This document shows positions 41,221 through 58,639 of a stretch of DNA of 64,000 nucleotides, in pieces (within the stretch, counting starts at the first letter, position 1; every line of letters starts with the position of its first letter). The DNA is from Burkholderia sp. USMB20 (GTDB lineage Bacteria > Pseudomonadota > Gammaproteobacteria > Burkholderiales > Burkholderiaceae): contig NZ_JTAN02000003.1 of assembly GCF_000949135.2 (NCBI RefSeq), positions 496,001-560,000 on the forward strand, in the 5' to 3' direction. Position numbers and translations under genes: made by a program. The notes under the pieces are model-generated. The model saw nothing but the letters and a program-made list of their open reading frames with translations. It was not told the origin of the DNA and ran no database searches.

Positions 41221-41301
41221 ATCAATAAGTACGTTGCGTTTCTAAAAGGGGGATAGTAACATCAACCCCAATAGATCCTAACCGTATCTAAAGGTGCACT
41301 C

Positions 41302-43758: not shown

Positions 43759-44166
43759 CTACTTTACTGGCCCGAGAACCTGTAAGGATTCGCGATCTCG
43801 ACCGTTCCCGGCGTACTCCGGGAGTAACGCCCATACGGAATCATCGCGCGTGATCTTCACAGGGATGGCCGTCAATTGCCTGCCGATGCATGGCCCGGTG
43901 ATGCAACGGCCCGTGGCGATGTCGAATCGCGCGCCATGTCCGTGGCAGACGATCGCACTTCCGGTCGCGTCGAGATACGCGTCCTTGCGCCACGGCAACG
44001 TTGCGCCGGGCCAATGAGGGCAGCTGTTGCGATAACCGTGCACGGCGTCGTGCATGCGGACCAAGAACACGTCGTCGGCCCCGCTGCCCCGCAGGTCGAA
44101 GCCGCGCGCGCCGACGACGGGAATGTCGCCGACCGCGCAGAGCCGTACCCAGCCGCCCGCGTTCAT
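43759..44166 (-). CDS. Rieske-type ferredoxin
   Basis: 135 residues with one Rieske [2Fe-2S] site: Cys-49/His-51 (SCPHWPG) and Cys-74/His-77 (CHGHGARF). It has the small size and lack of membrane anchor of electron-transfer components of aromatic oxygenases. It lies 13 bp after the dioxygenase gene. No terminal-oxygenase alpha subunit lies next to it, so its electron acceptor is unknown. Confidence 0.85.
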   Translation of the reverse strand: MNAGGWVRLCAVGDIPVVGARGFDLRGSGADDVFLVRMHDAVHGYRNSCPHWPGATLPWRKDAYLDATGSAIVCHGHGARFDIATGRCITGPCIGRQLTAIPVKITRDDSVWALLPEYAGNGRDRESLQVLGPVK

Positions 44167-44179
44167 CGTTGCGGGCGCG

Positions 44180-45130
44180 TCAATGCGGTGCGTCGCCGGC
44201 GGCAGGCGGCGGGCCGCCCGGTGCCCACTTCTCGCGCCACTGGAACAGGAACTCCTGTGCGTTGTCGACCATCGCCGGTGCGACGCGCGGCACCCACGTG
44301 TCGTCGTGTTGGTCCATGTCCGCGTCGTATTCGACATGGCATCCGAGCGGGCTGTTGAAATACCAGAACCAGTTGGATCCGAACCGGTGGCGGCCCGGGC
44401 CCCAGAACGTCTCGTAACCCTTGGACGCGAATGCATAACCGGCGCGCAGCACCTCAGACGGTCCGCCGAGATGGAACGTGAAATGGTCGCATCCTTGCAT
44501 GGCCGGCGGCGTCTGAATGAGGAACAGCGTATGGTGATCGAGCGTGCCCGCAGGCCGCAGGAACGGACCCATTCCGACGAAGCGATCGCTGACCCGGAAG
44601 CCCAGCCGCTCGACGTAGAACGCCTCGGCTTTTTCCGCATCGGGAACGAAGTACACGACATGAGACAACGTTCGCGGCAACGGCAGCTGCTCGTCGTTGC
44701 GGGTCGGCGAGCCTGGCACGTTGACCGGGCGGCGCGTGTCGCCTGGCGCATTGACGGTTTCGGCCGGCAATGTCGGTACCGTACGCACCGACACCTGGAA
44801 ACCGAGCGTGAAGCCGGCATCGTCGACGGCCTCGATCGAGCCGTTCGCAAGGTGCTTCACTTCGCGGTCGGTGGCGAGTTCCCGTGCGATCTCGTCGAGC
44901 GCAGCCTGGTCGGCCACGCCGTAGATAGTCTTCCGCAACTGGTTGGCCGTTGCGAATGGCCACGGCGGCAGCAAGGGGTCGTTCTTCGGCCGGACGACTA
45001 CGCCGGTGCCGTCCAGAGCATCGAATGCTCCGTTGCCCTTCGGGATCAAACCGTAGTCGGTCAGAAACGTCGTACAGCTTTCGACATCGTCGACACCGAA
45101 GACGAGGGTGTCGGGTCCGAGGATTCTCAT
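44180..45130 (-). CDS. Extradiol ring-cleavage dioxygenase (VOC superfamily, two-domain)
   Basis: 316 residues made of two vicinal-oxygen-chelate domains. Likely metal ligands of the C-terminal domain are His-157 (LSHVVYF), His-216 (CDHFTFH) and Glu-267 (CHVEYD), the 2-His-1-Glu set. The family opens catechols or hydroxylated rings next to the diol with Fe(II) or Mn(II). It is the first gene of a leftward operon (dioxygenase-ferredoxin-porin). It is divergent from the FAH-family gene across a promoter with inverted operator copies. Confidence 0.85.
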   Translation of the reverse strand: MRILGPDTLVFGVDDVESCTTFLTDYGLIPKGNGAFDALDGTGVVVRPKNDPLLPPWPFATANQLRKTIYGVADQAALDEIARELATDREVKHLANGSIEAVDDAGFTLGFQVSVRTVPTLPAETVNAPGDTRRPVNVPGSPTRNDEQLPLPRTLSHVVYFVPDAEKAEAFYVERLGFRVSDRFVGMGPFLRPAGTLDHHTLFLIQTPPAMQGCDHFTFHLGGPSEVLRAGYAFASKGYETFWGPGRHRFGSNWFWYFNSPLGCHVEYDADMDQHDDTWVPRVAPAMVDNAQEFLFQWREKWAPGGPPPAAGDAPH

Positions 45131-45168: not shown

Positions 45169-45300
45169 ATATATACGATACGGTGTGGATCATAATAGTC
45201 CCCTTCGTTGCGGGTGATCAAGCGCAAATCAGCGCCAAGATGCCTTTGGTACATGAGGAAAAACCCGCACTAACGAGACGAATCGTATCGTATATATAAT
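45169..45300. promoter_or_regulatory. Divergent promoter with paired ATCGTATC-type operator copies
   Basis: CGTATCGTATATAT is present on the plus strand at 45284-45297 and as its exact complement at 45169-45182. Each copy lies near the start of one of the divergent genes. The right copy is part of a 30-bp element (45271-45300) that agrees at 26 of 30 positions with one at 56150-56179. This is strong evidence of a shared regulator binding both promoters. Confidence 0.7.
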
Positions 45301-45374
45301 CGACCCAACATCAACACGGATGGCGTGCCCGGACCTTTGCTTCCAGGTGGCGCATCCCTACCTGGAGTCGAAGC

Positions 45375-46373
45375 ATGAAATTGGGTCGAATTGCGGTGAA
45401 TGGACCGGACGGCGACGTTGCACGCCTGGTGCTGGTGGTGCCGGAGGAAGGGCGCGTCATCGATCTGAAACGGGCATCGATCGCTGCGCTGGAAAAGCAG
45501 GGTGCCACGCGTGAAGCCGCGCATCGACTGTCCGACGCATTGTTTCCGGGCAGCATGTCGGCGGCGATCGGCCTCGGGCAGCGTTTTCTCGATGCCGCGC
45601 AGCGCGCCGATCGCGAACGTCCCGACGCGGCATCATTGTCGATCGACGAAGTGAAGTGGCTGCCAGCCAGCGATCCGTCCGTGGTGCGCGACGGATTGAC
45701 GTTCGTCGGCCACATCAAGGGATTTCACGAAAAGATCGGTCACGCGCCGCATGAGAGTCTGTTGAAAGTACCCGGCTATTTCAAGGGCACGCCGCACACG
45801 GTGATCGGTCACGACGCGGAGGTGCCTTGGCCGGGCTATATCGAGCGGATGGACTATGAACTCGAGCTCGGCTACGTGATCGGCCGGCGTGGCGGCAACC
45901 TGCGGCCGGAACACGCACGTCCGTACCTGTTCGGGATCACGGTATTCAACGACTTCAGCGCGCGCGACCGGCAGGCGATCGAAATGCCGATCCAGATGGG
46001 TCCGACCAAGTGCAAGGATTTCGCGTACGGTATCGGCCCATGGATCACGACGATCGACGAATTCGCCGATCTCGACGCGATTCCGATGGAAGTGCGCGTG
46101 AATGGCGAGACGTGGGGGAAGGGGACGAGCGCGAACAAGCTGTGGAGCGTCGACGAGTTGATCGCGTGGGCGAGCCTCGGCGAGGTGCTGGAGCCGGGCG
46201 ACGTGATCGGCTCGGGCACGATGGGCGGCGGCTCCGCGCTCGAACTCGACCGCCGGCTCGAGCCGGGCGACGTGGTCGAGCTCGACGTGGGCGGCATCGG
46301 CGTGCTGCGTAATCGGATGGGGCAGCCGCAGTCAGGACTGTGGTGGCCGCAGGAGCGCGCGCCTTTCATGTGA
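45375..46373 (+). CDS. Fumarylacetoacetate hydrolase-family protein
   Basis: 332 residues. FAH-fold metal and active-site stretches are present: TFVGHIKGFHEKIG, the acidic pair in MDYELELGYVIGRRG, FNDFSARDRQ, and GTMGGGSALELDR near the end. The family splits C-C bonds of oxo acids or hydrates dienoates after ring cleavage. It heads a rightward operon with an FAD monooxygenase and is divergent from the extradiol dioxygenase gene, so it probably acts on its product. Confidence 0.87.
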   Translation: MKLGRIAVNGPDGDVARLVLVVPEEGRVIDLKRASIAALEKQGATREAAHRLSDALFPGSMSAAIGLGQRFLDAAQRADRERPDAASLSIDEVKWLPASDPSVVRDGLTFVGHIKGFHEKIGHAPHESLLKVPGYFKGTPHTVIGHDAEVPWPGYIERMDYELELGYVIGRRGGNLRPEHARPYLFGITVFNDFSARDRQAIEMPIQMGPTKCKDFAYGIGPWITTIDEFADLDAIPMEVRVNGETWGKGTSANKLWSVDELIAWASLGEVLEPGDVIGSGTMGGGSALELDRRLEPGDVVELDVGGIGVLRNRMGQPQSGLWWPQERAPFM

Positions 46374-46409
46374 TCGATACGAAAACAACCATCAATCAGG
46401 AGACAAGCC

Positions 46410-47543
46410 ATGGCTTCGCAATACAAGGTGCTCGTTGTCGGGGGCGGAATCGGCGGGATGACGCTCGCGCATGGGCTCGCGCGGGCCGGCATGGACGTGA
46501 GGGTCATCGAAAGCAGCCATCGCACGGATCAGCAGGGCACCGGCATTTCTCTGCTCGGCAATGCGTTGCGCGCGCTCGATCGCGTCGGGCTCGCGGATGC
46601 CTGCATGGCGGCTGGTTCCGGATGGGACACGGTCAGCGTGCGCGGCGATGCGGGTGATGTGGTGAACGAGCGCCGTCCGCCACGTACGTTCCGGCCGGAT
46701 GCGCCGGGCGCGATCGGCATCATGCGGCCGAAACTCGCGGAGGTGCTCGAATCGCACGCGCTGGCCGGCGGCGCACGGATCGATTACCGGACGACGGTCG
46801 ACGATTTCGAGCAGCATGCGGAGGGTGTGTCGTACCGTCTGTCGAATGGCGAGACCGGACATTGCGATCTGCTCGTCGCGGCCGACGGCACGTATTCGAA
46901 GACGCGTGCCAAGGCATTCGGCGCACAGCATCAGCCGAGTTATGCGGGGCAGGGCGCGTGGCGGCTGACAGTCGAGCGTCCGGCGGGCTTTGACGGGCTC
47001 GTGCTGTACAAGCACCGCGACGGCCGGATGGTGGGCGGCCTGCCGCTGTCGGATACGCTGTGCTACTACTTTTTCCTCGAAAACGCCCGCGAGCGCTCGC
47101 ACATGCCGGACGAGCGGCTGAGCGAGATGTTCCGCGAGCGGCTTGAAGGCTTTACCGCTCCCGACCTGCTCGCCGCGGCGTCGCGCTGCGACGGCACGCG
47201 CTACATCAGCTACCGACCGTTCGATATCCTGATGATGCCGCAGCCGTGGTATCGCGGGCGCGTGGCATTGCTCGGCGATGCCGCACACTCCGTTACCCCG
47301 CAGCTCACTTCCGGCGGTGGAATGGCGATCGAGGACGCAGTGGTACTTGCGGAGGAACTGTTGACGAAAGCCGATGTGGACGCCGCGCTGTCCGCGTATT
47401 CCGCGCGCCGAGGCGAGCGCGTCAAACGCGTGTTCGACATCTCTCTGGCGATTTGCCAGGCCGAGCAGGATCCGAACGCCGATCCGCGGCGCGCCGTCGA
47501 GTTGCTGCTCGAAGGGTACGGCGTGCTGGCCGAGCCGTTCTGA
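46410..47543 (+). CDS. FAD-dependent aromatic monooxygenase
   Basis: 377 residues. The FAD motif is VGGGIGGMTLAHGL near the N-terminus, the DG motif is LLVAADGTYSKTR, and the second FAD motif is ALLGDAAHSVTPQLTSGGGM. These mark a class A flavoprotein hydroxylase of the salicylate/p-hydroxybenzoate group. It lies 36 bp after the FAH-family gene. It could supply the diol for the dioxygenase encoded on the other side of the shared promoter. Confidence 0.87.
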   Translation: MASQYKVLVVGGGIGGMTLAHGLARAGMDVRVIESSHRTDQQGTGISLLGNALRALDRVGLADACMAAGSGWDTVSVRGDAGDVVNERRPPRTFRPDAPGAIGIMRPKLAEVLESHALAGGARIDYRTTVDDFEQHAEGVSYRLSNGETGHCDLLVAADGTYSKTRAKAFGAQHQPSYAGQGAWRLTVERPAGFDGLVLYKHRDGRMVGGLPLSDTLCYYFFLENARERSHMPDERLSEMFRERLEGFTAPDLLAAASRCDGTRYISYRPFDILMMPQPWYRGRVALLGDAAHSVTPQLTSGGGMAIEDAVVLAEELLTKADVDAALSAYSARRGERVKRVFDISLAICQAEQDPNADPRRAVELLLEGYGVLAEPF

Positions 47544-47755
47544 GAAGCGAGCGGTCGGCCGCGGGCGCGCAGGCAAGCGCGACTGACCGTGCGGATCTCG
47601 CCGGAGCCGGGCGCACGTTCGCGCTCGTGTTCCGGCTTTTTCGTTTATCGGTTCGTTCGCCAGTCCGTTGATGTATTGCTGATCGCGATGCACTGCGGCG
47701 CACGCGACGGTGCGCGCCGGAGGGGGTGCCGGCGCACACTCGATGCACGACTCGA

Positions 47756-49225
47756 TCAGAGGCCGCCGAGCGCGACGTACTTGATCTCGAGATACTCGTC
47801 GATCCCGTACTTCGAGCCTTCTCTACCGAGACCGGACAGCTTGACGCCGCCGAACGGCGCGACTTCGGTCGAGATGAGCCCCTCGTTGACGCCGACCATC
47901 CCGAAATCGAGGCCCTCCACCACGCGGAAGATCCGTCCGACGTCACGCGTATAGACGTAGGACGCGAGGCCGAACGGCGTATCGTTCGCGAGCGCGATCG
48001 CTTCGTCCTCGGTGTCGAACCGGAACAGCGGTGCGACTGGGCCGAACGTTTCCTCGCTGAAGATCAGCGCGTCGCGTGGCACGTCGGTCAACACGGTCGG
48101 CTCGAAGAATAAGCCGCCCATCGGATGGCGTCGCCCGCCGGTCGCGACTTGCGCACCCTTGGCCCGTGCGTCCGCAATATGCTGCTCGAGTTTCAGTACG
48201 GCCTCCTCGTTGATCAGCGGCCCGAGCGCGACGCCGGCGTCCATCCCGTTGCCCACCTTGAGGCGCGCCGATTCGTCGGCCAGTCGCCGCGCGAACGCAT
48301 CGTAGATGCCGGACTGCACGAGCAGGCGGTTGGCCGCGACACATGCCTGGCCGGTATTCCGGTATTTCGCGAGGAGCGCGCCTTTGACGGCGGCGTCGAT
48401 ATCGGCGTCGTCGAACACGATGAACGGCGCGTTTCCGCCCAGCTCCATGCTCGTCTTCTTCACCGTCGGTGCGCATTGAGCGAGCAATTGCGAACCGACC
48501 TCGGTGGACCCCGTGAACGAGAGCTTGCGCACGGCCGGATGGCGCGTCAGTTCCGCGCCGATCGCGCGCGCGGACCCGGTGACGATGTTGCATACGCCGG
48601 CAGGCAACCCGGCGCGTTCGGCCAGCACGCCGAGCGCGAGCGACGACAGCGGCGTCTGGCTAGCGGGCTTGATCACGCCGGTGCAGCCCGCGGCCCACCC
48701 GGGCCCCGCCTTGCGCGTGAGCATTGCCGACGGGAAATTCCACGGCGTGATAGCGGCGAACACGCCGATCGGCGCTTTCTGCGCAAGCAGCCGGCGGCCG
48801 TCGACGTTGTGCGGAATGATGTCGCCGTAGGTGCGTTTCGCCTCTTCGGCGAACCATTCGATGAAGCCGGCCGCATAGTGGATTTCGCCACGCGCTTCGG
48901 CGAGCGGCTTGCCCTGTTCGGCGGTCATGATGACGGCCAGATCGTCGATATGCGCGAGCATCAGGTCGTATAGCGCCCGAAGGATGCGCGAGCGCTCTTT
49001 CGGCAGCACGCGGCGCCAGTCGCGCATCGCCCGTTCCGCGGCTTCGATCGCACGCGTCGTTTCCGCCGCGCCGGCCAGCGGCACGCGCCCGACCAGTTCG
49101 CCCGTAGCCGGGTTGCGCACGTCGAGCGTGGCAAGACTATCGGCTTGCACCCAGCGGCCGTCGATCAGCATGGCTTGCCGGAGCAGGTCAGGATCCTTGA
49201 GAGTGAGTTTGATGGGTTCGGTCAT
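47756..49225 (-). CDS. Succinate-semialdehyde-type aldehyde dehydrogenase
   Basis: 489 residues. Catalytic Cys-295 (NTGQACVAANR), Glu-261 (MELGGNAP) and Asn-163 (TPWNFPSAM) are all present. The sequence is closest to GabD succinate-semialdehyde dehydrogenases, a family that also includes 2-oxoglutarate-semialdehyde dehydrogenases. It is the third gene of the cyclodeaminase-DHDPS-dehydrogenase operon, 9 bp after the DHDPS-family gene. The real aldehyde is probably set by that operon. Confidence 0.85.
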   Translation of the reverse strand: MTEPIKLTLKDPDLLRQAMLIDGRWVQADSLATLDVRNPATGELVGRVPLAGAAETTRAIEAAERAMRDWRRVLPKERSRILRALYDLMLAHIDDLAVIMTAEQGKPLAEARGEIHYAAGFIEWFAEEAKRTYGDIIPHNVDGRRLLAQKAPIGVFAAITPWNFPSAMLTRKAGPGWAAGCTGVIKPASQTPLSSLALGVLAERAGLPAGVCNIVTGSARAIGAELTRHPAVRKLSFTGSTEVGSQLLAQCAPTVKKTSMELGGNAPFIVFDDADIDAAVKGALLAKYRNTGQACVAANRLLVQSGIYDAFARRLADESARLKVGNGMDAGVALGPLINEEAVLKLEQHIADARAKGAQVATGGRRHPMGGLFFEPTVLTDVPRDALIFSEETFGPVAPLFRFDTEDEAIALANDTPFGLASYVYTRDVGRIFRVVEGLDFGMVGVNEGLISTEVAPFGGVKLSGLGREGSKYGIDEYLEIKYVALGGL

Positions 49226-49234
49226 GATCGTTGT

Positions 49235-50245
49235 CTATTCGGGATGGCGGCCGATGAAGAACGCCTCGTCGGGATCGCGGGTCGGATTGAGGCCGGCGGC
49301 TTCGAGCCCCTTGCGAAGGACCACCATGTCGCGCTGGAACACGCGCTGTGTCGGGTGCGGCAGCGGGCCGCCGTTATAGCCCTGGAGCCAGCCCTGATAC
49401 TTCCACATCATCCGGTTGAGCAGACCGTTGGCGGCCATCGGCAGGCTCGCGAACGCCTTGCGTGCCGGGTCCATCCGGTACCACAGCTGCGTCGCCTCGT
49501 CGTATTGACCGGCTCGGATCAGCTTGTGGATGCGCGGCAGCAGCGGCCCGTAGTACGCGGAATAGTTGGTGCCGCAGAACGGGATGTCCATCACCTGCGC
49601 GAGCGGCACGTACTCGTATTCGAGCGGTGACGAGATCACGACCTCGCGGTGGAATTCGCGATGCACTTCGATGGCCGACATGATGTACGGCAACCCGCCT
49701 TCCGCCTTGATCGCGACGACGTTCGGGATTTCGTCGACCATCCGGCGCAGCACGGGTAGCGGAATGTCGGCGGGGTGAAGGCGGCCGAAGCCCCATGCAG
49801 GCAACGGAAACACGATCACGCCGAGATCCGTCGCCGCGCAGATCGCCTGCGTGTAGTCGAACACTTCGTCGTACGACTTCGGATAGAAATACGGCGGATA
49901 GCCGAGCAGTACGACGTCCGCGCCTGCGTCTTCGGCGAGCTTCACCGCATCGATGTTGTCTTCCAGCGTGTTGAACACAGCGTGGTGGACGACCAGCAGC
50001 CGGCCGGCCGCCTGGTCGGCCATGATCTGGCAGAACTCGCCGTACTGCGCCTGCGTGATCGCGACTTCCGAGCACGACAGCGAACCGACGAAGCCGTGTT
50101 CGATCGCGAGCTCGACGTCGTGTCGAACCGCTTTCTCGTTGATGCGCCTGAAGTCCGACGTCATCGTCGGAATCGTCACGTTCGCGACTCCCAGAAGGTG
50201 TTCGCGCGCCCAGTCGCGGGCTTCATGCTTGTGGTAGCGGGCCAT
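49235..50245 (-). CDS. Dihydrodipicolinate synthase-family aldolase/dehydratase
   Basis: 336 residues. The Schiff-base Lys-180 (VVAIKAEGG) is conserved, while the usual GTTGE pocket motif is GSLSCSE (54-60). This family includes pyruvate aldolases, oxo-acid dehydratases and cyclic-imine deaminases. The protein is longer than DapA (~290). It lies between the ornithine-cyclodeaminase-like and aldehyde dehydrogenase genes with gaps of 12 and 9 bp, so a role in the same catabolic route, not lysine synthesis, is inferred. Confidence 0.85.
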   Translation of the reverse strand: MARYHKHEARDWAREHLLGVANVTIPTMTSDFRRINEKAVRHDVELAIEHGFVGSLSCSEVAITQAQYGEFCQIMADQAAGRLLVVHHAVFNTLEDNIDAVKLAEDAGADVVLLGYPPYFYPKSYDEVFDYTQAICAATDLGVIVFPLPAWGFGRLHPADIPLPVLRRMVDEIPNVVAIKAEGGLPYIMSAIEVHREFHREVVISSPLEYEYVPLAQVMDIPFCGTNYSAYYGPLLPRIHKLIRAGQYDEATQLWYRMDPARKAFASLPMAANGLLNRMMWKYQGWLQGYNGGPLPHPTQRVFQRDMVVLRKGLEAAGLNPTRDPDEAFFIGRHPE

Positions 50246-50257
50246 GTCGTTCTCCGG

Positions 50258-51265
50258 TTACATGGGTTTGGGTTCGAATGCGATCGGCAGCGGCACGGCC
50301 AGGCCGGCCTCACGCGCCAGGTCAAGCACGAGCCCGGCGACCACGATGTCCTGCAGGCCGCTGCCGACCGACTTGAACAACCGGTTTCGGGAGGCCTCGA
50401 GCCGCTCGGCGCACGCGCCGCTCATGACGTCGGCCAGGCTCACGGCGACGCGCTCGACGGCGATGCCGGCCGCGCGTGCGGCGATCATGTCGCCGGTGTC
50501 GTGCAGCACTTCGTCGGGCACGTCGCACACGATCAGGTCGCTGCGCTGGACGACCGATACGTCGATCTCGCGCTGCTGGGGGATCGTCGAGCCGATCGAG
50601 ACGACCGTCGCGCCCGGCGTCAGCCAGTCGCCGAACAGGATCGGGCGCTCACCGTGCGAGCGGGCTGCGGCGAGCACGATATCCGCGCCGTCGACGGCGG
50701 CTTCCGGCGATGCGGCCGCGCGTGCGGGACTGCCGAGATCGCGGTGCAGATCGGCCGCGAACGCGTCGCGACGTGCATGAGTGGGGCTGAACACCGTGAT
50801 GTCGGTCAACGGCCGTACGCTCGCGAATGCGCGTGCGTGCATCGATGCCTCGAGCCCGCTGCCCAGCACGGCCAGGCGCGCTGGGCCCGGGCGTGCGAGT
50901 CGATCCAGCGCCGCCGCCGAGGTGGCCGCAGTGCGAAACCCAGTCACGAGATTGCCGTCCACGAAGCCGGCGATGCGGCTCGTGTCGTGGTCGAAGAGCA
51001 CGATCACGTAGTCGATGCCGGGCGCCTGCGCATGCCCGGCCATTCCCATCAGCTTCGCGCCGAAGTATTGGCTGCCGGGCGGCATCGCCGGTAACGCGCG
51101 CAGCCACGCGCCGTTGCCGCTGGCAATGGTGCGCGGCGGCACGGCCGACGCGGCGACCGGCTGACCGTATGTCGCTTGTAACGCGGCGACCGCATCTTTC
51201 CAGCGAAACACTGCACGTGCGGCATCGCTAGATATGAACACCGGAGGGGAAATCGGAAGTGTCAT
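50258..51265 (-). CDS. Ornithine cyclodeaminase/mu-crystallin-family protein
   Basis: 335 residues. The family's active-site and NAD-binding segments are visible: QYFGAKLMGMAGH, GFVDGNLVTGFRTAATSAAA, and the Rossmann LAVLGSGLEASMHARAF with SPTHARRD. Members include ornithine cyclodeaminase, alanine dehydrogenase and pyrroline-2-carboxylate (ketimine) reductase. It is the first gene of its operon. The DHDPS-family and dehydrogenase partners favour a ketimine or amino-acid catabolic role. Confidence 0.85.
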   Translation of the reverse strand: MTLPISPPVFISSDAARAVFRWKDAVAALQATYGQPVAASAVPPRTIASGNGAWLRALPAMPPGSQYFGAKLMGMAGHAQAPGIDYVIVLFDHDTSRIAGFVDGNLVTGFRTAATSAAALDRLARPGPARLAVLGSGLEASMHARAFASVRPLTDITVFSPTHARRDAFAADLHRDLGSPARAAASPEAAVDGADIVLAAARSHGERPILFGDWLTPGATVVSIGSTIPQQREIDVSVVQRSDLIVCDVPDEVLHDTGDMIAARAAGIAVERVAVSLADVMSGACAERLEASRNRLFKSVGSGLQDIVVAGLVLDLAREAGLAVPLPIAFEPKPM

Positions 51266-51392
51266 CAGTAGCTCCTGCTAAGGGGGAAGCGCTGCACGGT
51301 CATGGAACGGCCTGCCGGCGGCCGGACGGTCCGGCACCTCCAAGTTGATACGGCGGCTGTGTCGAGTGCAGCGCAGGGTGAATATTAAGTTG

Positions 51393-51412
51393 ATATTGAT
51401 GCGCATCAATAT
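51393..51412. promoter_or_regulatory. 20-bp perfect palindrome, probable GntR operator
   Basis: ATATTGATGC is followed by its exact complement GCATCAATAT. It lies about 130 bp upstream of the cyclodeaminase start and about 240 bp from the gntR start. A related site (51571-51587) lies near gntR. The pair fits operators of the adjacent FCD-type regulator. Confidence 0.6.
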
Positions 51413-51570
51413 GTAAATTGATTTGTATCGGGTAAACGATAGCGACGGCGATTTAAGGGCCGAGACGCAAATTTCTTCGCCCGGCGGGAAGGAGTGGGGC
51501 CAAGTTTCCGGCGACTGCCATAGAACTGCTTTTGGCGAATCAATCCGTCATGACGGCCGGCAATGAGTGA

Positions 51571-51587
51571 ATTGATTCGATATCAAT
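51571..51587. promoter_or_regulatory. ATTGAT-N5-ATCAAT inverted repeat, probable GntR operator
   Basis: Six-base arms ATTGAT and ATCAAT separated by TCGAT. A further ATTGATTCGATTCATCAA follows at 51591. The repeated half-sites lie within 80 bp of the gntR start, consistent with autoregulation. Confidence 0.55.
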
Positions 51588-51649
51588 CGGATTGATTCGA
51601 TTCATCAAGTGCCGCTAAGATTGCGCATCAATGCGAACGGGAAGGTGGA

Positions 51650-52321
51650 ATGCGGGTGGGAGTGATCGAAGACGACGTGGCCCGGCTGCGCGAATACGTG
51701 CATCGCGCATTTCAGCGCGGGGAAGAGCGTCTGCCGCCGGAGCCGAAGCTTTGCGACGTGCTCGGCGTGTCGCGCGGGCGCCTGCGTACGATGCTCAAGC
51801 ATCTCGAGAACGAGGGGCTCATCTGGCGCCATGTCGGCAAAGGAACATTCGTCGGGCCGCGGCCGATGGCGGTCGACGACAAGCATGCGGCCACGTCGAT
51901 CAGCGTTGACGACATCATCGCCGCGCGGCTGCTGCTCGAGCCGCAACTGGCGGGGCAGGCCGCGATTCACGCGACGGCGGCCGACATCGCGGCGCTCGAT
52001 CGCTGCCTTGCCGACATGGCGGCGACCGATTCGTTTTCCCACTGGAAACGCCTCGACGAAACGCTTCACCGAACCATCGCCGAGGCCACCCACAATGCGC
52101 TGCTCGTGATGATGTACGACGTGTTGCGCTCGTGGGTGAAGGCGAGTCTCGACGCACGGATCGAGGAGGTGTACGGACATGCGCCGACGCCGAAGCAGAC
52201 GACGGACAAGGCGCACATCGTGATCGTCGAGAGTATCCGCTCGCACAATCCAGGCAAGGCGGAAGACGCAATGCGCGAGCATCTGCGCGCGGTGAGGACA
52301 CATTTGTTCGGCCTGCGCTGA
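51650..52321 (+). CDS. GntR-family regulator, FCD (FadR-like) subgroup
   Basis: 223 residues. Winged helix: EYVHRAFQRGEERLPPEPKL, then VLGVSRGRLRTMLKHLENEG and WRHVGKGTFVGP. The all-helical FCD ligand domain follows, with metal-binding residues in RLDETLHRTIAEATHN and REHLRAVRTH. It is divergent from the cyclodeaminase-DHDPS-dehydrogenase operon and next to palindromic operators, so it probably senses an intermediate of that route. Confidence 0.88.
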   Translation: MRVGVIEDDVARLREYVHRAFQRGEERLPPEPKLCDVLGVSRGRLRTMLKHLENEGLIWRHVGKGTFVGPRPMAVDDKHAATSISVDDIIAARLLLEPQLAGQAAIHATAADIAALDRCLADMAATDSFSHWKRLDETLHRTIAEATHNALLVMMYDVLRSWVKASLDARIEEVYGHAPTPKQTTDKAHIVIVESIRSHNPGKAEDAMREHLRAVRTHLFGLR

Positions 52322-52423
52322 CCTGCGGGCCGGCGACGACGCGCGCCACGCCCGCCGTTTGCGGTGGGGTTCCTCAGCCGAGGCCGCTATCGCTGCAGAT
52401 CGCTAACCTATCGCGCCGATAAT

Positions 52424-52442
52424 TAAGATACGATGTGTCTTA
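52424..52442. promoter_or_regulatory. Near-palindrome upstream of tetR containing GATACGAT
   Basis: TAAGATACGATGTGTCTTA has symmetric arms (TAAGA/TCTTA and AC/GT around a GAT centre). It contains the GATACGAT core, the complement of ATCGTATC found at the 45.2 kb and 56.2 kb promoters. It lies about 105 bp before the tetR start and is a likely autoregulatory operator. Confidence 0.55.
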
Positions 52443-52547
52443 TAATTCGCGCTGCCATGTGCATACCGCGCCCCTGTCCGGCATTCTTTGTCGTCATGCC
52501 GCAGTGCGGGCATGCTATCTGTCATTCGCCGTCAATCAGTTTCCTTC

Positions 52548-53231
52548 ATGAAGACACAAGCCCAGTCTCCCGTCACCGTACCTGCTCCACGAGGCGTAGG
52601 CCGCCCGCGCAGCGAGGAAACGCGCACGCAGATTCTCGCGGCCACGGTGCGTTTGCTCGAAACGCGCACCGTGCAGGCCATCTCGATCGAAGCCATTGCG
52701 AAGGAAGCGGGAGTCGGCAAGGCGACTATCTATCGCTGGTGGGATTCGAAAGCGCTGGTCGTGATTGATGCGTTCATCGAGCACCACGTGGTGAAAACGC
52801 CGATGCCGCGTGATCTGCCGCCCGGCAAGGCGATTGCGATGCATCTTCTGTCGCTGATACACGAGTATGCGGGATGGTCGGGGCGGATCGTCGCGCAGAT
52901 CATCGCCGAAGGCCAGGCCGATCCCGCCGTGCTGCGCGAGTTCCGCGAGCGCTTTCACTATGGGCGGCGCGCGCTCGTGCGGGAAATGCTGGAGGAATGG
53001 CGCAACGACGCGCGCATTCCGACGCCACCGAACATCGAGACGCTCGGCGAACTTCTGTATGCGCCGGTGTATATGCGGTTGTTGGTCGGCACCGGTACGC
53101 TGGACGACCATTTCGCGCGGGAACATCTCGGCTACGTGTTCGGTCTGCTCGGCGTCGAACCACCGGACGTCGCCGAACTGAGCGCCCAACTCAAGCGCGG
53201 TGCCGTATCGAAAAAAGCCGCCGCGCGTTGA
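52548..53231 (+). CDS. TetR-family regulator
   Basis: 227 residues from MKTQAQSPVT; an upstream ATG at 52488 is less likely. HTH: TVRLLETRTVQAISIEAIAK and AGVGKATIYRWWDSKALVV. The C-terminal ligand domain resembles the TetR_C_16 type (GWSGRIVAQIIAEGQADPAV). Its promoter carries the core motif that recurs before the ring-cleavage and cupin operons. It is therefore the best candidate for their common regulator. Confidence 0.88.
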   Translation: MKTQAQSPVTVPAPRGVGRPRSEETRTQILAATVRLLETRTVQAISIEAIAKEAGVGKATIYRWWDSKALVVIDAFIEHHVVKTPMPRDLPPGKAIAMHLLSLIHEYAGWSGRIVAQIIAEGQADPAVLREFRERFHYGRRALVREMLEEWRNDARIPTPPNIETLGELLYAPVYMRLLVGTGTLDDHFAREHLGYVFGLLGVEPPDVAELSAQLKRGAVSKKAAAR

Positions 53232-53302
53232 GGCGGGCAACACTCAATTGCAGTTCGTCCCGATCGCGCGGGCCCGGCCGCCAAATGCGGGCCGGGACGG
53301 CA

Positions 53303-54544
53303 TCATCCGAGCGATACGCGTCCTTCCTGCGCTGCATGCACGGATTCAGTCGGCCCGCGCCGCGCGAGCGTGAGGATCAGGACGGTCGTGGTCGCGATGG
53401 CAGATACAAGCGCCAGCCAGGCGACCGCCGCAAAGAGCCCGCCTGTCAGCTTCGACACGACCTCCACGACGAGCGGGCTCAGAAAGTTGCCGAAGAAGAA
53501 CGCCCCCATGTAACCGCCCGTCGCGCGGCCGCTCTGCTCGAACGGTACACGTGCCAGCGTCCAGGTTCCGAGCAGCGGCAGCGCCATGCCGCCACCCGCG
53601 GCCGCGAGAAATGCACCCGCGATCGTGGCGCTCACGCCGCTGAACGAAGCGATCACGACGAAGCCCACCGTGAACAGGCCGAATGCGGCGACCAGGAGCC
53701 GGTTGATCGCGACACGTGCGAACCGGTGAAAGACGAACGAGCCGACCGGAATGCCTGCGTTGGCGATCGCGCCGCCCAGGCCGAGAATCGCTGGTTCGGT
53801 CACGCCGCGCGCATTGAGCAGAAAGCTGATCTGTACCGGCACGACGAAAAACAGGACCGACGCGAACAGGATCAGCGCGCAGAGCGGGCCGATCTCGCGC
53901 CACGGGAACGGCAACGCGTGTGCGGGACGTTGCGTTGTCGTTGCTTGCTCCGGTTCCCAGATCAGCCATGCGATCAGCGGGAGAAACGCGAACGCGCAAC
54001 CGTAGACGAGGAACGGCGTCCGCCATCCGGTTGCGAGGCTGCCGAGCGCCCCGCCGACCGAGAACATCACGGCCGCGACAACTGACGCCGATGCGTGCTG
54101 CATGGTCAGCCATTTTTGTCGCCGCACGCCGCTGAAGTAGTTGGCGACGAGTGCGGTAGCGATGGTAACGATCGCCGCTTCCGCGAGCCCGATCACGGCG
54201 CGCGATGCGACGATCGCATGCAGGTCCTTCAGCCAGAACGGCAGCACGCCGGCGATGCCGTAGATCGCGACGGCCGCGAGGTACAGCGGTTTTCGGCCGA
54301 ACAGATCGACCAGCGAGCCGACGAGCGGGCTGAACAGCGCAATCATCAGCGCGGGAATCACGAGCGCGATCACAGTGAGCAGCTCCGCCTGCGGTACCTG
54401 CGCATAGTCGTGGCGCATCAGCGGAAGAACCGGTGCGATCAGCACGGCGCCGGTCGATGCGAGCCAGCAGCTCGCCATCAGCAACCATCCGTGTACGTTG
54501 CCGGCGACGCGCGGCGCGTGTCCTTCGGGAAGTGCGTTTGCCAT
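53303..54544 (-). CDS. MFS transporter
   Basis: 413 residues from MANALPEGHA, with GGAG spaced before the ATG, and about 12 helices. The loop 2-3 motif is GSLVDLFGRKPLYLAAVAIY, and the long central loop includes EPEQATTTQRP. It resembles drug/metabolite MFS carriers. It is the last gene of the cupin-BKACE-MFS operon, 100 bp after the BKACE gene, and probably moves the substrate or an intermediate. Confidence 0.85.
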   Translation of the reverse strand: MANALPEGHAPRVAGNVHGWLLMASCWLASTGAVLIAPVLPLMRHDYAQVPQAELLTVIALVIPALMIALFSPLVGSLVDLFGRKPLYLAAVAIYGIAGVLPFWLKDLHAIVASRAVIGLAEAAIVTIATALVANYFSGVRRQKWLTMQHASASVVAAVMFSVGGALGSLATGWRTPFLVYGCAFAFLPLIAWLIWEPEQATTTQRPAHALPFPWREIGPLCALILFASVLFFVVPVQISFLLNARGVTEPAILGLGGAIANAGIPVGSFVFHRFARVAINRLLVAAFGLFTVGFVVIASFSGVSATIAGAFLAAAGGGMALPLLGTWTLARVPFEQSGRATGGYMGAFFFGNFLSPLVVEVVSKLTGGLFAAVAWLALVSAIATTTVLILTLARRGPTESVHAAQEGRVSLG

Positions 54545-54644
54545 GATGTCTCCAATATTGTGGTGTGCGATGCGCCGTGAACGATCGACGCGCATCGGCA
54601 CGGGCGGCGCGCTACGGCGTCGTGCCCGTGCGATGCGCGCGCAG

Positions 54645-55574
54645 CTAGAACCCGACCTGATCGGCGCCCTTCAGGTCCAGCATTGCTCTCGCTTCGTCGG
54701 GCGTGGCGATTTCGATGCCGAGTTCGTCGAGAATTCGGCGAATTTTCCGGACCTGATCTGCATTGCTGCGGGCGAGTTGTCCTCGCCCGATGTACAGGCT
54801 GTCTTCGAGTCCGACCCGCACGTTGCCACCCATCAGGCTCGACATCGTCGCGAGCGGCATCTGGTGCTTCCCGGCAGCCAACACCGACCAGTGGTAGTCG
54901 TTGCCGAACAGCCGGTCCGCTGTGCGCTTCTGGTGCAGCAGATCCTCCACGTGCGCGCCCATCGCGCCACGCAGACCGAACACCGACTGGATGAAGAGCG
55001 GCGGTTTGACCAGGCCTCTTTCCAGGAAGTGGTGCAGCGTATACAGGTGCCCCACGTCGTAGCATTCGAACTCGAAGCGCGTGCCGCCGGCGCGGCCGAC
55101 GTGCTCGAGAATCCATTCGATGTCCTCGAAGGTGTTCCGGAACACGAGGCCGCGCGTGGCCTGGAGAAACGGTACTTCCCAGTCGTGGCGCCACGCGCGG
55201 TCGCGTTCGGCCATCTCGGACAGCACCAGATTGATCGACCCCATGTTGAGCGAGCACATTTCCGGCTTGAGCGCTTCTCCCGCAGCCGCGCGTTCCGCGA
55301 TCACCATGTTCGGGCCGCCGCCGCCCGTCGAGATGTTGATCACCGCGTCCGTCGACGACTTGATTGCGGACACGAAGCGCCGGAACAGCGCGGGATCGCC
55401 GGACGGACGCCCCGTTTCGGGGTCGCGGGCGTGCAGGTGAATGATCGCTGCGCCCGCTTCGGCGGCGGCGATCGATTCGGCCGCGATCTGCTCGGGCGTC
55501 ACCGGAAGGAATTCGGACATGGACGGCGTATGCGCGCCGCCGGTCACTGCACAGGTAATGATCGCCTTGCTCAC
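54645..55574 (-). CDS. BKACE-family beta-keto acid cleavage enzyme
   Basis: 309 residues from GTG 55574, overlapping the cupin stop by four bases. The Zn-binding HxH (His-46, His-48 in IIHLHARDPETG) and the STGGGGPNMV loop are conserved, with GGNVRVGLEDSLY near the C-terminus. BKACE enzymes (3-keto-5-aminohexanoate cleavage family) split beta-keto acids with acetyl-CoA. The substrate depends on the operon and is not known. Confidence 0.88.
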   Translation of the reverse strand: MSKAIITCAVTGGAHTPSMSEFLPVTPEQIAAESIAAAEAGAAIIHLHARDPETGRPSGDPALFRRFVSAIKSSTDAVINISTGGGGPNMVIAERAAAGEALKPEMCSLNMGSINLVLSEMAERDRAWRHDWEVPFLQATRGLVFRNTFEDIEWILEHVGRAGGTRFEFECYDVGHLYTLHHFLERGLVKPPLFIQSVFGLRGAMGAHVEDLLHQKRTADRLFGNDYHWSVLAAGKHQMPLATMSSLMGGNVRVGLEDSLYIGRGQLARSNADQVRKIRRILDELGIEIATPDEARAMLDLKGADQVGF

Positions 55575-56137
55575 AGCGGCTCTCCTTCGACGAGATCGAG
55601 CAGCACGAACGCCATGCGGCACGGCTTGCCCGAGCGGTTCGCCCAGCTGTGGTTCGTCGCTCGCTGTACGAGCACGTCGCCCGCGCGCATCAGCGTCTCG
55701 CCTTCGTCGAGCAGCGCCCAGATCTCGCCGTCGAGGACGATCGCGTAGTCGAGCGATTCGGTCTTGTGGAACCAGAAATGCCGCGCACCGCGCGTGTCGC
55801 GCACACCGCTCGCGTCGAGAAACTGGGCGAGCTGCGTTTCGTCGTACGTTTCGTCCGGCGGAAAATCGACGATACGCAGCAGCGAGCCGCCTTTCGAATG
55901 GAAACCGAATGCGTGTCCGGCCGGCGCTGGCTCGTCGCCCGCCGCCCGCGCGTCGCCGGTCGCCCAGACGACATGCGCGAGCGGCAACCCCTTGCGCGTG
56001 GTCCGGTTCGGCGTAGGTCCGTCGGACACGATGCAGGACTTGCCGTCGGCGCGCGTACCCGTGACGATGCGCCGGACCGGCCGATAGTCGTCGACGTCCG
56101 CCTGTCGCGCGTGGTCAGCCATCAATGTTGGCTCCAT
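55571..56137 (-). CDS. Cupin-domain protein
   Basis: 188 residues from MEPTLMADHA, with GGAGAG before the ATG. One cupin barrel is seen at ~115-185: HFWFHKTESLDYAIVLDGEI followed by AGDVLVQRATNHSWANRSGK. The second metal-binding histidine (NHSW) is present. It could be a small dioxygenase, isomerase or sensor. It is the first gene of the cupin-BKACE-MFS operon, behind a large inverted repeat. Confidence 0.8.
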   Translation of the reverse strand: MEPTLMADHARQADVDDYRPVRRIVTGTRADGKSCIVSDGPTPNRTTRKGLPLAHVVWATGDARAAGDEPAPAGHAFGFHSKGGSLLRIVDFPPDETYDETQLAQFLDASGVRDTRGARHFWFHKTESLDYAIVLDGEIWALLDEGETLMRAGDVLVQRATNHSWANRSGKPCRMAFVLLDLVEGEPL

Positions 56138-56147
56138 GTTTCTCTCC

Positions 56148-56179
56148 ATTAACGAGTCGAATCGTATCGTATCGTTAAT
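56148..56179. promoter_or_regulatory. Inverted repeat with ATCGTATCGTAT core (shared operator)
   Basis: Perfect 8-base arms ATTAACGA and TCGTTAAT enclose GTCGAATCGTATCGTA. Bases 56150-56179 agree at 26 of 30 positions with 45271-45300, including the 15-base core CGAATCGTATCGTAT. It starts 10 bp before the cupin start, where a repressor would block transcription. Confidence 0.75.
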
Positions 56180-56239
56180 GAGCGTCGACGGTGTGTCAAT
56201 AGGGGAAAGGCGCGTAAATTCTGGCTTGAGATCTTCTTG

Positions 56240-56263
56240 ACAAAACGAAACGATACGTTTTGT
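56240..56263. promoter_or_regulatory. 24-bp inverted repeat ACAAAACG-N8-CGTTTTGT
   Basis: Perfect 8-base arms enclose AAACGATA, giving a CGATACG segment related to the core motif. It lies about 37 bp before the NMT1-like gene, so the divergent gene pair has one operator per side. Confidence 0.65.
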
Positions 56264-56299
56264 AATAGACGCCATCGATAGACAACTAGAGTGAAATTC

Positions 56300-57160
56300 A
56301 TGGAGACAACACCCGTGCGCGTGATGTGGTTCGTGCCACCGTTGCTCGCCCTCGTAGCGGGCAGCGAGCCGGGCGCGATCCGCGTCGACGCGCGTCGCAA
56401 CCGCTCATCCGACGAGCAATTCGATGCGCTCGTGTCCGGTGACGTCGACGCGGTCGTCACGTCGATGGACAACGTGATCGGCTGGAACCGCCGCGCCGGG
56501 CCGCGCGATTTTCGCGTGGTGGCCCAGATCGAGAGGACGACGCCGTTGAGCGTCGTCGGGCAGCCATCGCGAGCCACGCTGGGCGATCTGCGCGACACCG
56601 ACATCCTCGTCGACGCTGTCGACAACGGATTCGTCGTGGCGCTGCGCATGCTGCTGCGCGACGCAGGATTGGCGGACGATGCGTACCGGCTCGTCCCGTG
56701 CGGCGGTGTGAAGGAGCGGTTCGACGCGTTGGTGGCCGGACAGGGTGCGGCGACGTTGCTGGGGCCGCCGTTCGATGCGCTGGCAGTTCGGTCTGGCCTG
56801 ACTCCCCTCGCCAGCGTTCAGGAGGCCTATCCCGAATTTCCCGGGCAGGGCGTCGTGATGCGCGCCGGTTGCACGGCTCGTGCCCGCGTTGTCGCCTGGC
56901 TTGCCAATCTCGAGCGAGCGCGTCTGATCGTTGCCGGAGATGCCGAACGCGCCACGCGCGCGGTGCTTGCGGGCGGCCTGCCGCTGGCAGCCGCTGACGC
57001 GATGCTGGCCACCGCGCCCGAGTCGTTGCGTCCAGATCGCGCGGGTGTTGCATTGCTGGTCGAGCATCGACGCGCACTGGGGCTCGCGGGCGGTGAGGAC
57101 GACCATGCGGCGGTCGTCGATGATTCGTTAATCGAGGGTTGGGTGGGAGAAGATCAGTGA
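56300..57160 (+). CDS. NMT1/THI5-like substrate-binding-fold protein without signal peptide
   Basis: 286 residues from ATG 56300; GTG 56291 is an alternative. Type 2 periplasmic-binding-fold segments are visible: DEQFDALVSGDVDAVVTSMD, VDAVDNGFVVALRMLL and YRLVPCGGVKERFDALVAGQ. No export signal is seen, so it may be a cytoplasmic ligand-binding or catalytic relative. It overlaps the FAH-family gene by four bases and opens a three-gene operon. Confidence 0.75.
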   Translation: METTPVRVMWFVPPLLALVAGSEPGAIRVDARRNRSSDEQFDALVSGDVDAVVTSMDNVIGWNRRAGPRDFRVVAQIERTTPLSVVGQPSRATLGDLRDTDILVDAVDNGFVVALRMLLRDAGLADDAYRLVPCGGVKERFDALVAGQGAATLLGPPFDALAVRSGLTPLASVQEAYPEFPGQGVVMRAGCTARARVVAWLANLERARLIVAGDAERATRAVLAGGLPLAAADAMLATAPESLRPDRAGVALLVEHRRALGLAGGEDDHAAVVDDSLIEGWVGEDQ

Positions 57161-58152
57161 ATCGATATGCATTGGGTACGTTTTCCGCGGGCGATGGCGC
57201 CCGCTTCGCCGGGCTCGTCGTCGACGATCGCGTCGCGCCGCTGGCGCAGGCCGCCGCGTCGGTCGGCGATCGTTCGTTTAATGATTCGACGACCGTGCTG
57301 TCGCTGCTCGATGCGTGGGATGACAACCAGCCGAAGCTCGCGCGCATCGTCGACGCGATGTCGGTAGACGGCGTGCGCTGGTATGCGTTGCGCGAGCTAC
57401 ATACGCATCCAGCGATCGACCTGCCGCGCCAAATCTTCTGCACCGGTGCCAATTACCGCAAGCATGTGGTCGACCTCACCGTCGATGCAAAGGTCGGGCC
57501 AGAAGGGCTGAACGATGCGGAGTTGCGCCGCTGGGCCGAGAACATGATGGACGAACGGGTGGCGAACGGCGAGCCGTACGTCTTTACGAAGCCAGTGTCC
57601 GCGGTGTCCGGCGCGTTCGATCCGCTGGTGCTGCCGCCGACCACGACGAAGCCGGACTGGGAGCTCGAGCTGGCCGTGGTGATCGGGCGCGGCGGGTACA
57701 TGATCGACCGCGAGCATGCGCTTGACCACGTGGCGGGCTACACGATCGTCAACGATATCTCCGCGCGCGATCTGATTCCGCGCACCGACTACAAGATGCT
57801 CGGCACCGACTGGCTCCGTTCGAAAGGGCAGCCCGGTTTCCTGCCGCTGGGTCCGTATCTCGTGCCGAAGCAGTTCGTGTCCGATCCCCACCGGTTGTCG
57901 ATGCGGCTGACCGTATCGGGCCAGACGATGCAGGACGAGACCACTGCGGACATGCTGTTCGGCATCGAACGGCAGATCGAGTACATCTCCCGCTATGCGC
58001 GGCTGTTGCCCGGCGACATCATCTGCACCGGCTCGCCGGCGGGCAACGGCACGCACTATGGTCGCTTTCTGCGGGACGGCGATGTGATGGAGGGCGAGAT
58101 CGAGGGGCTGGGGCGTCAACGCCAGGTTTGCATTGCACATCATCATGAGTGA
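57157..58152 (+). CDS. Fumarylacetoacetate hydrolase-family protein
   Basis: 331 residues from GTG 57157, coupled to the upstream stop. The FAH-fold stretches are FCTGANYRKHVVDL, the acidic pair in DWELELAVVIGRGG, IVNDISARDLIP, and CTGSPAGNGTHYGRFL near the end. It is the second such enzyme in the region and is only distantly like the first, so they probably act on different intermediates. It overlaps the thioesterase gene by eight bases. Confidence 0.87.
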   Translation: MNRYALGTFSAGDGARFAGLVVDDRVAPLAQAAASVGDRSFNDSTTVLSLLDAWDDNQPKLARIVDAMSVDGVRWYALRELHTHPAIDLPRQIFCTGANYRKHVVDLTVDAKVGPEGLNDAELRRWAENMMDERVANGEPYVFTKPVSAVSGAFDPLVLPPTTTKPDWELELAVVIGRGGYMIDREHALDHVAGYTIVNDISARDLIPRTDYKMLGTDWLRSKGQPGFLPLGPYLVPKQFVSDPHRLSMRLTVSGQTMQDETTADMLFGIERQIEYISRYARLLPGDIICTGSPAGNGTHYGRFLRDGDVMEGEIEGLGRQRQVCIAHHHE

Positions 58153-58639
58153 TCCGCTGCCGAACACGGAGTTCCGCGACCACGCTGGGATTCCCGACAA
58201 CCCTGATCGCGCATTGCTTCATGCGCTTCTGTCGACGCAGGCCCGGAACATCAAGCTCGACATGAATCCGGCGCTGACGTCGCTCGGTGCCACATTACTG
58301 GCGGGGAGCGCGGGGGTACTGTCCATTGGTTTCACGGCGCCTGAGCACTCGGTGCAGGGCAACGGCGTCGTGGCGGGGGGCACCCTCGCGTCGATGCTCG
58401 ATTTCGCGATGGCGCTTGCACTGCTGTCGGAATTGCCGCACGGGCGCACGTGCGCGACGATCAGCCTGACGGTCAACATGCTCGAACCCGGACACGTCGG
58501 TGAGTTCGTGGCCAACGCGCGCGTCAAGCGGCGTGGCGGGCGCGTGGCGTTCGCGGGAGGCGAGCTGTACGACGCGACGAGGACACGCTGCATTGCTACG
58601 GCGACGGCTCCGTTCGCGGTGTTCGATGTGCGTCGCTGA
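58145..58639 (+). CDS. PaaI-type hotdog thioesterase
   Basis: 164 residues from MSDPLPNTEF. Hotdog-fold features: EHSVQGNGVVAGGTLASMLD, which contains the catalytic acidic residue region, followed by TISLTVNMLEPGHVGEF. It probably hydrolyses an acyl-CoA formed in, or escaping from, the catabolic route. It is the last gene of its operon. Confidence 0.82.
   Translation: MSDPLPNTEFRDHAGIPDNPDRALLHALLSTQARNIKLDMNPALTSLGATLLAGSAGVLSIGFTAPEHSVQGNGVVAGGTLASMLDFAMALALLSELPHGRTCATISLTVNMLEPGHVGEFVANARVKRRGGRVAFAGGELYDATRTRCIATATAPFAVFDVRR

Follow-up and report, generated by a model that had tools for sequence, protein, structure and literature searches.

A conserved set of five PhlF-class operators in an isoflavone-type catabolic gene cluster of Burkholderia sp. 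USMB20, with a TetR-family protein as its proposed repressor

We have analysed a 64,000-nt stretch of DNA from Burkholderia sp. USMB20 (contig NZ_JTAN02000003.1, positions 496,001 to 560,000; the whole stretch is called the window below), in which a cluster of catabolic genes surrounds a gene for a TetR-family regulator. Five copies of a palindromic element stand at the heads of tetR itself and of four catabolic operons. Its sequence and positions, its conservation among relatives and its association with tetR were observed directly by computation. To judge from the sequences, these sites form a real and conserved regulon that controls catabolic genes of isoflavone type and whose mechanism is of a known kind; very probably, the PhlF-class TetR represses its own gene and the four operons until a flavonoid-like inducer binds to it. 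The patchily distributed isoflavone-type degradation genes of soil and root bacteria thereby acquire a precise and testable regulator and operator.

A preliminary description of this DNA had proposed that one operator set links at least three promoters of the region. The repeats on which it relied are as claimed: 26 of the 30 positions are alike in the two 30-mers (45271-45300 and 56150-56179), 45169-45182 reads ATATATACGATACG, the reverse complement of a 14-mer inside the 45271 element, and the sequences given for 52424-52442 (before tetR) and for the inverted repeat at 56240-56263 were found as described. From named genomes we gathered 50 loci that encode relatives of the window TetR, and fitted a symmetric 27-bp matrix to L001-L024 only, with the window excluded; the seed was typed in, having been picked once sequences had been viewed. 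Near the TetR gene, L001-L022 carry part or most of the window's catabolic set, in variable order. The matrix converged on a 19-bp palindromic core, ACGATACG-N3-CGTATCGT, with A/T flanks, and its five best separate matches in the window were the five places of the preliminary description (scores in Table 1). The promoters linked are in fact five operon heads, all ranked first. The shared element is real, although its unit is the palindrome with a 3-bp centre and not the 15-mer first put forward, and the five-site set covers 11.1 kb where 13 kb had been supposed.

With this matrix, the best of 100 second-order Markov shuffles reached 17.3 bits (mean 10.2), and overlapping registers of the five sites themselves scored 10.6-21.1 bits. 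The same five places came out on top with a matrix built from Pseudomonas loci only and with one built from distant TetR loci only (L026-L050), all five exceeding the highest score among 60 shuffles (18.2 and 16.9 bits, respectively); a matrix from ten phl loci ranked 4 of the 5 first. Word counts pointed the same way less sharply. The 15-mer CGAATCGTATCGTAT, with up to 3 mismatches, gave 10 matches in the window, several of them overlapping, against 1.9 expected, a count that none of 100 shuffles attained. The bare 8-mer ATCGTATC occurred 6 times against 1.6 expected, which 1 shuffle in 100 equalled; 2 of these 6 copies (37663 and 43195) fall outside the matrix's 15 best matches, and we discarded this mild enrichment as too weak to stand alone. 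Operator 2 is palindromic at 16 of 18 columns. The operators at 45171 and 52421 are half palindromic (10/18 and 8/18 columns), and both are still conserved in relatives: a 27-mer identical to operator 3 precedes tetR in L002, L003, L146 and L147. Likewise, CTTGANAAANCNNNACGNNNCGTTNTNTAAT in operator 5 is unchanged across 7 aligned promoters.

In the relatives, the sites recur at the same promoters. Across 30 loci (the window, L001-L022, L116 and L106-L111, of which L106-L111, L116 and the window lay outside the training set), 92 of 108 promoters of the extradiol, FAH1, TetR, cupin and 56291-type genes had a site of at least 20 bits within 300 bp; this count drops gene matches that fell below the identity cut-off, aligned late or lay near a locus end. 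With the window left out, sites preceded 10/18 extradiol, 17/17 FAH1, 28/31 TetR, 13/18 cupin and 19/19 56291-type genes. The five cupin misses (L013, L015, L018, L019 and L021) are due to the start-codon estimate, sites of 22.6-35.8 bits being present at a distance of about 35-40 bp from where the gene match ends. Genes that are mostly internal to operons were nearly devoid of sites, again with the window left out: FAD monooxygenase 0/17, ALDH 0/19, DHDPS 0/19, BKACE 0/18, FAH2 0/19, thioesterase 0/18, MFS 0/6, mop 1/17 and Rieske 1/19, a few mop and Rieske genes being counted twice in overlapping loci. In alignments of both divergent promoter regions the operators stand out as conserved islands, and in many loci the paired sites are again about 93-103 bp apart.

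Two genomes outside training, G721 (L146 and L149) and G735 (L147 and L148), each carry 5 of 5 sites at the same five heads: tetR 30.1 bits in both, FAH1 30.8 and 28.3, extradiol 29.3 in both, cupin 28.5 and 26.6, and the 56291-type gene 21.8 in both, with one extra weaker match of 18.0 bits each. G712 has three sites (20.2-27.1 bits). L151-L153 carry sites too, and appear to be genomes already in training. In L007-L010 and L116 the TetR gene occurs twice per cluster, each copy with upstream sites (16.5-33.3 bits).

The motif is also nearly confined to the cluster. In 11 whole genomes, which include training loci, the A/T-flanked pattern WWWWACGAWACGNNNCGTWTCGTWWWW with up to 3 mismatches occurred at 39 places, 37 of them on the cluster contig within 26 kb of the cluster; the reversed pattern, as control, occurred at 1 place in 1 of the 11. 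Among the 37 are G011:C16:125333 (L114), where tblastn found no cluster gene, and G008:C8:2197769, just beyond the locus stretch examined. The remaining two (G003:C107:25292, in L113, and G004:C1:333955, in L112) have the same palindrome at 28.1 bits, and a search of about 6 kb around them found no gene of the cluster. A search by 19-mer with 3 mismatches was abandoned for the A/T-flanked pattern, since in GC-rich genomes it lacked stringency, with 23-96 matches in each. Could the matches be due to chance, or to AT-rich promoter composition? In a GC-rich genome the matrix does lean towards A/T flanks, and the enrichment of the bare 8-mer is mild. Yet 60 column-permuted matrices, which keep composition, placed sites at a mean of 0.15 and a maximum of 3 of the 108 promoters that gave 92 with the true matrix, and the whole-genome matches concentrate at the cluster locus. 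We consider this explanation exceedingly improbable. Two outcomes that the preliminary description had named as refuting its proposal did not occur: the matches are not at random frequency, and the motif is conserved in relatives.

The motif also follows the TetR gene. Homologues of the window's extradiol dioxygenase (56-69% identical) occur in other clusters as well, often with extradiol, Rieske and FAD monooxygenase genes in a row; in the extradiol search 19 of 300 genomes matched, their weaker places (34-40% identity) being kept out of the count that follows. In seventeen such look-alikes no close TetR was found: 8 plasmid regions (L117-L121 and L123-L125, those without a TetR match among the best 15 of 29 matching records), 3 Burkholderiales genomes (L076-L083) and 6 Pseudomonas genomes that bear phl genes (L139-L144). 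At 1e-25 the complete records of the 8 plasmids yielded no close TetR, the TetR genes annotated in L120 and L124 being of a different kind; nor did one turn up in the 3 Burkholderiales genomes, where one 32% match lay far off, and the sole TetR match at 1e-15 in each of the 6 phl genomes was the 28-30% one adjoining phlG. All 17 together held one site of at least 20 bits, which scores 20.2 and lies in L079, 17 kb or more away from both extradiol genes of that genome, and two further sites of 17.6 (L076) and 16.3 bits (L125). Around the weaker extradiol places (L055-L069 and L071-L075, 3-4 kb each) there was no site of 14 bits or more. A Paraburkholderia hospita plasmid (L116) bears a TetR-type and an fde-type cluster near each other; 8 sites of at least 16 bits lie in the former and 0 in the latter. 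Close TetR homologues were present in at least 4 of 298 sampled Pseudomonas genomes (the genus of L013) and at least 9 of 144 Paraburkholderia genomes (that of L001), the best first-look candidates having been scored per genome.

Conversely, among 26 loci with distant TetR relatives (L025-L050; L027 and L040 are near copies), 19 had a site of at least 15 bits no more than about 250 bp ahead of the tetR match, in every case before a possible tetR start codon. Because IYRWWDSK was among the peptide patterns used to retrieve these loci, the shared helix is there by selection; the shared operator is not. An Acidovorax avenae TetR (PMC4204640) was set aside as unrelated by context.

The sites might instead be operators of another regulator, i.e. 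the FCD/GntR protein encoded at 51650, a LysR protein elsewhere or an unlinked TetR. The 52548 TetR is, after all, a binder proposed from sequence; the GntR gene lies within the cluster; and Bradyrhizobium versions of the cluster hold a LysR gene as well. However, the sites mark distant tetR promoters, mostly away from catabolic genes, and phlF genes. GntR promoters had a site in 0 of 6 relatives, and the gap between the GntR and OCD genes has a different repeat, of ATTGAT type; look-alikes without a close TetR lack the sites despite annotated LysR genes in 6 of the 8 plasmid regions. We regard another binder as highly unlikely. Comparison strongly supports a single TetR-controlled regulon, as the preliminary description had suggested: relatives have the motif before the same operons, the whole genomes searched have scarcely any of it outside the cluster, it recurs at related tetR promoters, and look-alike clusters without a close TetR lack it.

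The window TetR has TetR_N and TetR_C_11 domains above the Pfam cut-offs (41.7 bits against 24, and 54 bits against 32, respectively), and its putative operators are of the PhlF class, the same palindrome being found upstream of phlF. PhlF is reported to bind phO, an inverted repeat located between phlF and phlA, and to be set free by 2,4-diacetylphloroglucinol (DAPG) and MAPG (PMC8003664). The phlG family PF18089 occurred in 11 of 298 sampled Pseudomonas genomes, and in 10 of these 11 phl loci two sites (16.6-27.5 bits, window-free matrix) lie upstream of the TetR gene adjoining phlG; L105 had no site upstream of that gene. The names phlF and phlA are ones that we take to apply to these loci from their context. 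In L103 the sites separate the TetR gene from divergently oriented genes of KAS III/HMG-CoA-synthase-like and thiolase-like kinds, the layout that phlF-phlAC would have, and the sequence taken here for phO occurs letter for letter in L102 and L103. PhlF from DAPG-producing Pseudomonas resembles the window TetR in its TetR_C_11 domain (L103 PhlF), in TIYRWW in the helix-turn-helix, and in having the same palindrome upstream of its own gene, on the side of divergent KAS III/thiolase-type genes. It differs in that it controls antibiotic synthesis genes and not catabolic operons, and in that there are two sites of at least 16 bits per phl locus (10 loci) and five in the window. With 27% identity to L103 PhlF and no Phl enzyme among the 17 window proteins scanned, the window TetR is not a PhlF orthologue. 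Control of flavonoid genes by PhlF itself in phl-bearing Pseudomonas was considered and rejected: 6 of the 11 genomes have an extradiol cluster, and 0 of these 6 regions have a site of at least 16 bits.

Possibly, a single code, ACGATACG-N3-CGTATCGT, is common to TIYRWW-type TetR_C_11 repressors from Pseudomonas PhlF to that of the actinobacterium Corynebacterium occultum, a proposal that we make tentatively. If it holds, the repressors of polyphenol catabolism and of phloroglucinol antibiotics would be one interchangeable sensor group, with different ligands and the same DNA target, and should cross-repress when combined. PhlF is used as a repressor in genetic circuits; a code shared with it predicts cross-talk and offers new sensor parts. 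We found no paper on this regulator among the best-matching open-licence literature on flavonoid, naringenin or isoflavone degradation and TetR. To that extent the regulon is undescribed, as had been said of it, although its operator class is already that of phlF genes.

As to mechanism, we propose that the TetR would bind the 19-bp palindrome as a dimer at its own promoter (autoregulation) and at four operon heads arranged in two divergent pairs. In the first pair, extradiol-Rieske faces FAH1-FAD monooxygenase, with sites 98 bp apart; in the second, cupin-BKACE-MFS faces 56291 gene-FAH2-thioesterase, with sites 93 bp apart. Operator 5 lies in the spacer directly behind TTGACA (56237-56242), with TGTAAT 18 bp further; operator 3 contains TATAAT (52441-52446), and operator 2 touches a -10-like TATAAT (45295-45300). 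A sigma-70 scan of the three promoter regions gave one promoter-like match, on the extradiol side, where operator 1 overlaps its TATTAT, and nothing at the tetR and cupin/56291 regions; the other -35 and -10 assignments were made by eye. The operators overlap or adjoin core promoters, so that binding would block RNA polymerase there. The pathway would be turned on when the repressor is released by an aromatic inducer, probably an (iso)flavonoid or a compound formed early in its breakdown. The TetR could in principle act as an activator, or the paired sites could serve to loop the DNA rather than simply to block promoters. The spacing of about 93-103 bp in many loci would suit looping, but it follows from two facing promoters and is not fixed to whole helical turns, and the position of the sites on or beside core promoters (in part assigned by eye) is that of a blocking repressor. 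We think activation or looping quite improbable.

The predicted substrate follows from likeness to published gene sets for isoflavone (ifc) and naringenin (fde) breakdown. PMC11069340 describes a daidzein-inducible ifc cluster in Variovorax sp. V35 that is like the window in having an FAD monooxygenase, a glyoxalase-type dioxygenase and a cupin, with homologues reported in Burkholderia, Paraburkholderia, Bradyrhizobium and Pseudomonas. In that account the FAD monooxygenase IfcA adds a hydroxyl group to C8 of daidzein, the glyoxalase IfcB resembles FdeC, the cupins IfcD1/D2 act on 2-hydroxy-5-(4-hydroxyphenyl)-4H-pyran-4-one, and all of these were shown to take part in daidzein degradation (PMC11069340). 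The sections consulted characterise no regulator of ifc. In the window, the pathway would run from A-ring hydroxylation through extradiol cleavage and FAH and cupin steps to cleavage of a 3,5-dioxo acid by BKACE; the last enzyme would fit next after an IfcD-type step because the opened aryl-pyranone would be a 3,5-dioxo acid. The fde cluster of Herbaspirillum seropedicae also resembles the window, having an FdeC-like dioxygenase, Rieske FdeD, FAD monooxygenase FdeE and an FdeA-like protein (PMC8552027, PMC11069340). There FdeE acts with FdeD to hydroxylate naringenin, and FdeA is similar to a protein of phenol degradation (PMC8552027); FdeR is a naringenin-dependent activator (PMC10799723). 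The window departs from fde in that fdeC-D-E lie in a row whereas its own FAD monooxygenase gene is in a separate operon, and in having GntR and TetR, the only regulators among the 17 window proteins scanned, instead of FdeR. FdeR is of the LysR type. The fde-like extradiol look-alikes examined had neither the operators nor a close TetR that could be found.

The same regulon may be read with a substrate or inducer other than an isoflavone: a flavanone, some other polyphenol of phloroglucinol or resorcinol type, or an aromatic of a different sort. The fde set has enzymes of like kinds (PMC8552027, PMC11069340), IfcA is reported to fall into two groups with possibly different substrates (PMC11069340), and the Corynebacterium version of the cluster has another type of hydroxylase. 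On the other side, soybean-nodule Bradyrhizobium plasmids hold the gene set with TetR and operators, and the 3,5-dioxo-acid class of the BKACE would suit the opening of IfcD's aryl-pyranone. We regard a non-isoflavone compound as a substantial possibility that falls somewhat short of probable.

Several points weigh against repression of the whole set by this TetR and against its isoflavone assignment. Binding of the TetR, repression, inducer and substrate are what we infer from sequence, and the window is likened to V35 ifc by kinds of protein, not by sequence or gene order. In the conservation count, 22 of the 30 loci (L001-L022) were used in matrix training, some loci are near copies, and L106-L111 are neighbouring stretches from training genomes that overlap slightly with training loci; G721 and G735 are close relatives and so no distant replicates. 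The phl-only matrix lifts just three window sites (31.6, 24.3 and 22.7 bits) above its shuffle maximum of 20.2, and the degenerate tetR-promoter site scores 7.8 bits with it. Among the 26 distant TetR loci only 12 reach 20 bits, and 7 (L025, L034, L035, L038, L042, L047 and L050) have no upstream site. The Bradyrhizobium clusters lack a site before the extradiol gene and have a LysR gene in that place. Nor does everything between the sites belong to the set: OCD-DHDPS-ALDH, which is conserved with the cluster, has no operator in the window (best 9.5 bits), nor has the OCD promoter in any of the 11 Burkholderiales loci scored (L001-L010 and L012).

Among relatives, 7 of 18 OCD promoters have a site, and all 11 misses are those of Burkholderiales; therefore, control of OCD-DHDPS-ALDH seems to have been rewired. 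The OCD operon faces the GntR gene, and the gap between them (51390-51632) contains ATTGAT/ATCAAT-type inverted repeats, possibly GntR's own operators for OCD-DHDPS-ALDH.

The soybean Bradyrhizobium plasmids encode a TetR homologue and homologues of most window genes, and carry the operators. In L115, L122 and L128 the LysR gene adjoins the extradiol gene and TetR is also present; L115 and L122 have a 23.3-bit site before the homologue of the 56291 gene, and L128 a 28.7-bit site just past the LysR gene. These arrangements hint at two-regulator control (LysR and TetR) of the plasmid clusters. A Corynebacterium occultum plasmid (L127) encodes a 41% identical TetR and has sites before tetR (28.8 bits), MFS (26.5) and FMO-VOC (20.1), with a weaker one (18.6) between ALDH and OCD.

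Table 1. Putative operators (scores from the window-free matrix) and genes of the cluster, in window coordinates
Feature	Position	Strand	Basis and remarks
Operator 1	45171..45197	-	27.3 bits; promoter of extradiol dioxygenase-Rieske(-porin-like) operon; conserved island in 7 aligned promoters
Operator 2	45269..45295	+	32.9 bits; promoter of FAH1-FAD monooxygenase; conserved in relatives
Operator 3	52421..52447	+	30.1 bits; tetR promoter
Operator 4	56148..56174	-	26.5 bits; promoter of cupin-BKACE-MFS; conserved in 7 aligned promoters
Operator 5	56241..56267	+	31.9 bits; promoter of 56291 gene-FAH2-thioesterase operon
TetR-family repressor, proposed binder of the five operators	52548..53231	+	TetR_N + TetR_C_11 (Pfam); motif co-occurrence
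Outer-membrane phenol MetA-type protein, FdeA-like in kind	42767..43666	-	Pfam PF13557; placed in the operon by contiguity
Rieske ferredoxin, FdeD-like in kind	43759..44160	-	Pfam PF00355
Extradiol (VOC/glyoxalase-fold) dioxygenase, FdeC/IfcB-like in kind	44180..45130	-	Homologues adjoin Rieske and FAD monooxygenase genes
FAH-family hydrolase 1 (FAH1)	45375..46373	+	Pfam PF01557
FAD monooxygenase, FdeE/IfcA-like in kind	46410..47543	+	NCBIfam PRK06847
MFS transporter	53303..54559	-	Last gene of cupin-BKACE operon, from contiguity
BKACE	54645..55601	-	NCBIfam NF053538, 3,5-dioxohexanoate:acetyl-CoA acetone transferase, 500.5 bits (cut-off 430)
Cupin protein, IfcD-like in kind	55571..56137	-	Pfam PF07883, barely above cut-off
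Uncharacterised protein, first gene of operon 5	56291..57160	+	No Pfam or NCBIfam match
FAH-family hydrolase 2 (FAH2)	57139..58152	+	Pfam PF01557
PaaI/4HBT thioesterase	58133..58639	+	Pfam PF03061

The 56291-57160 protein also had no convincing match in the PDB (best E 0.021); genes of its type are present in most of the TetR-type clusters examined. Outside the five operon heads, an operator-like pair (41222-41248, 17.0 bits, and 41268-41294, 14.0 bits) precedes a gene for a serine hydrolase of beta-lactamase fold at 41302, of which no homologue was found in the TetR-type loci compared. The 41222 site is borderline, at 17.0 bits against the shuffle maximum of 17.3 with the main matrix and at 18.8 against 18.2 with the Pseudomonas-only matrix, which gives the 41268 site 13.6 bits. 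The 41302 promoter is a possible sixth target, which we kept out of the five-site count as borderline.

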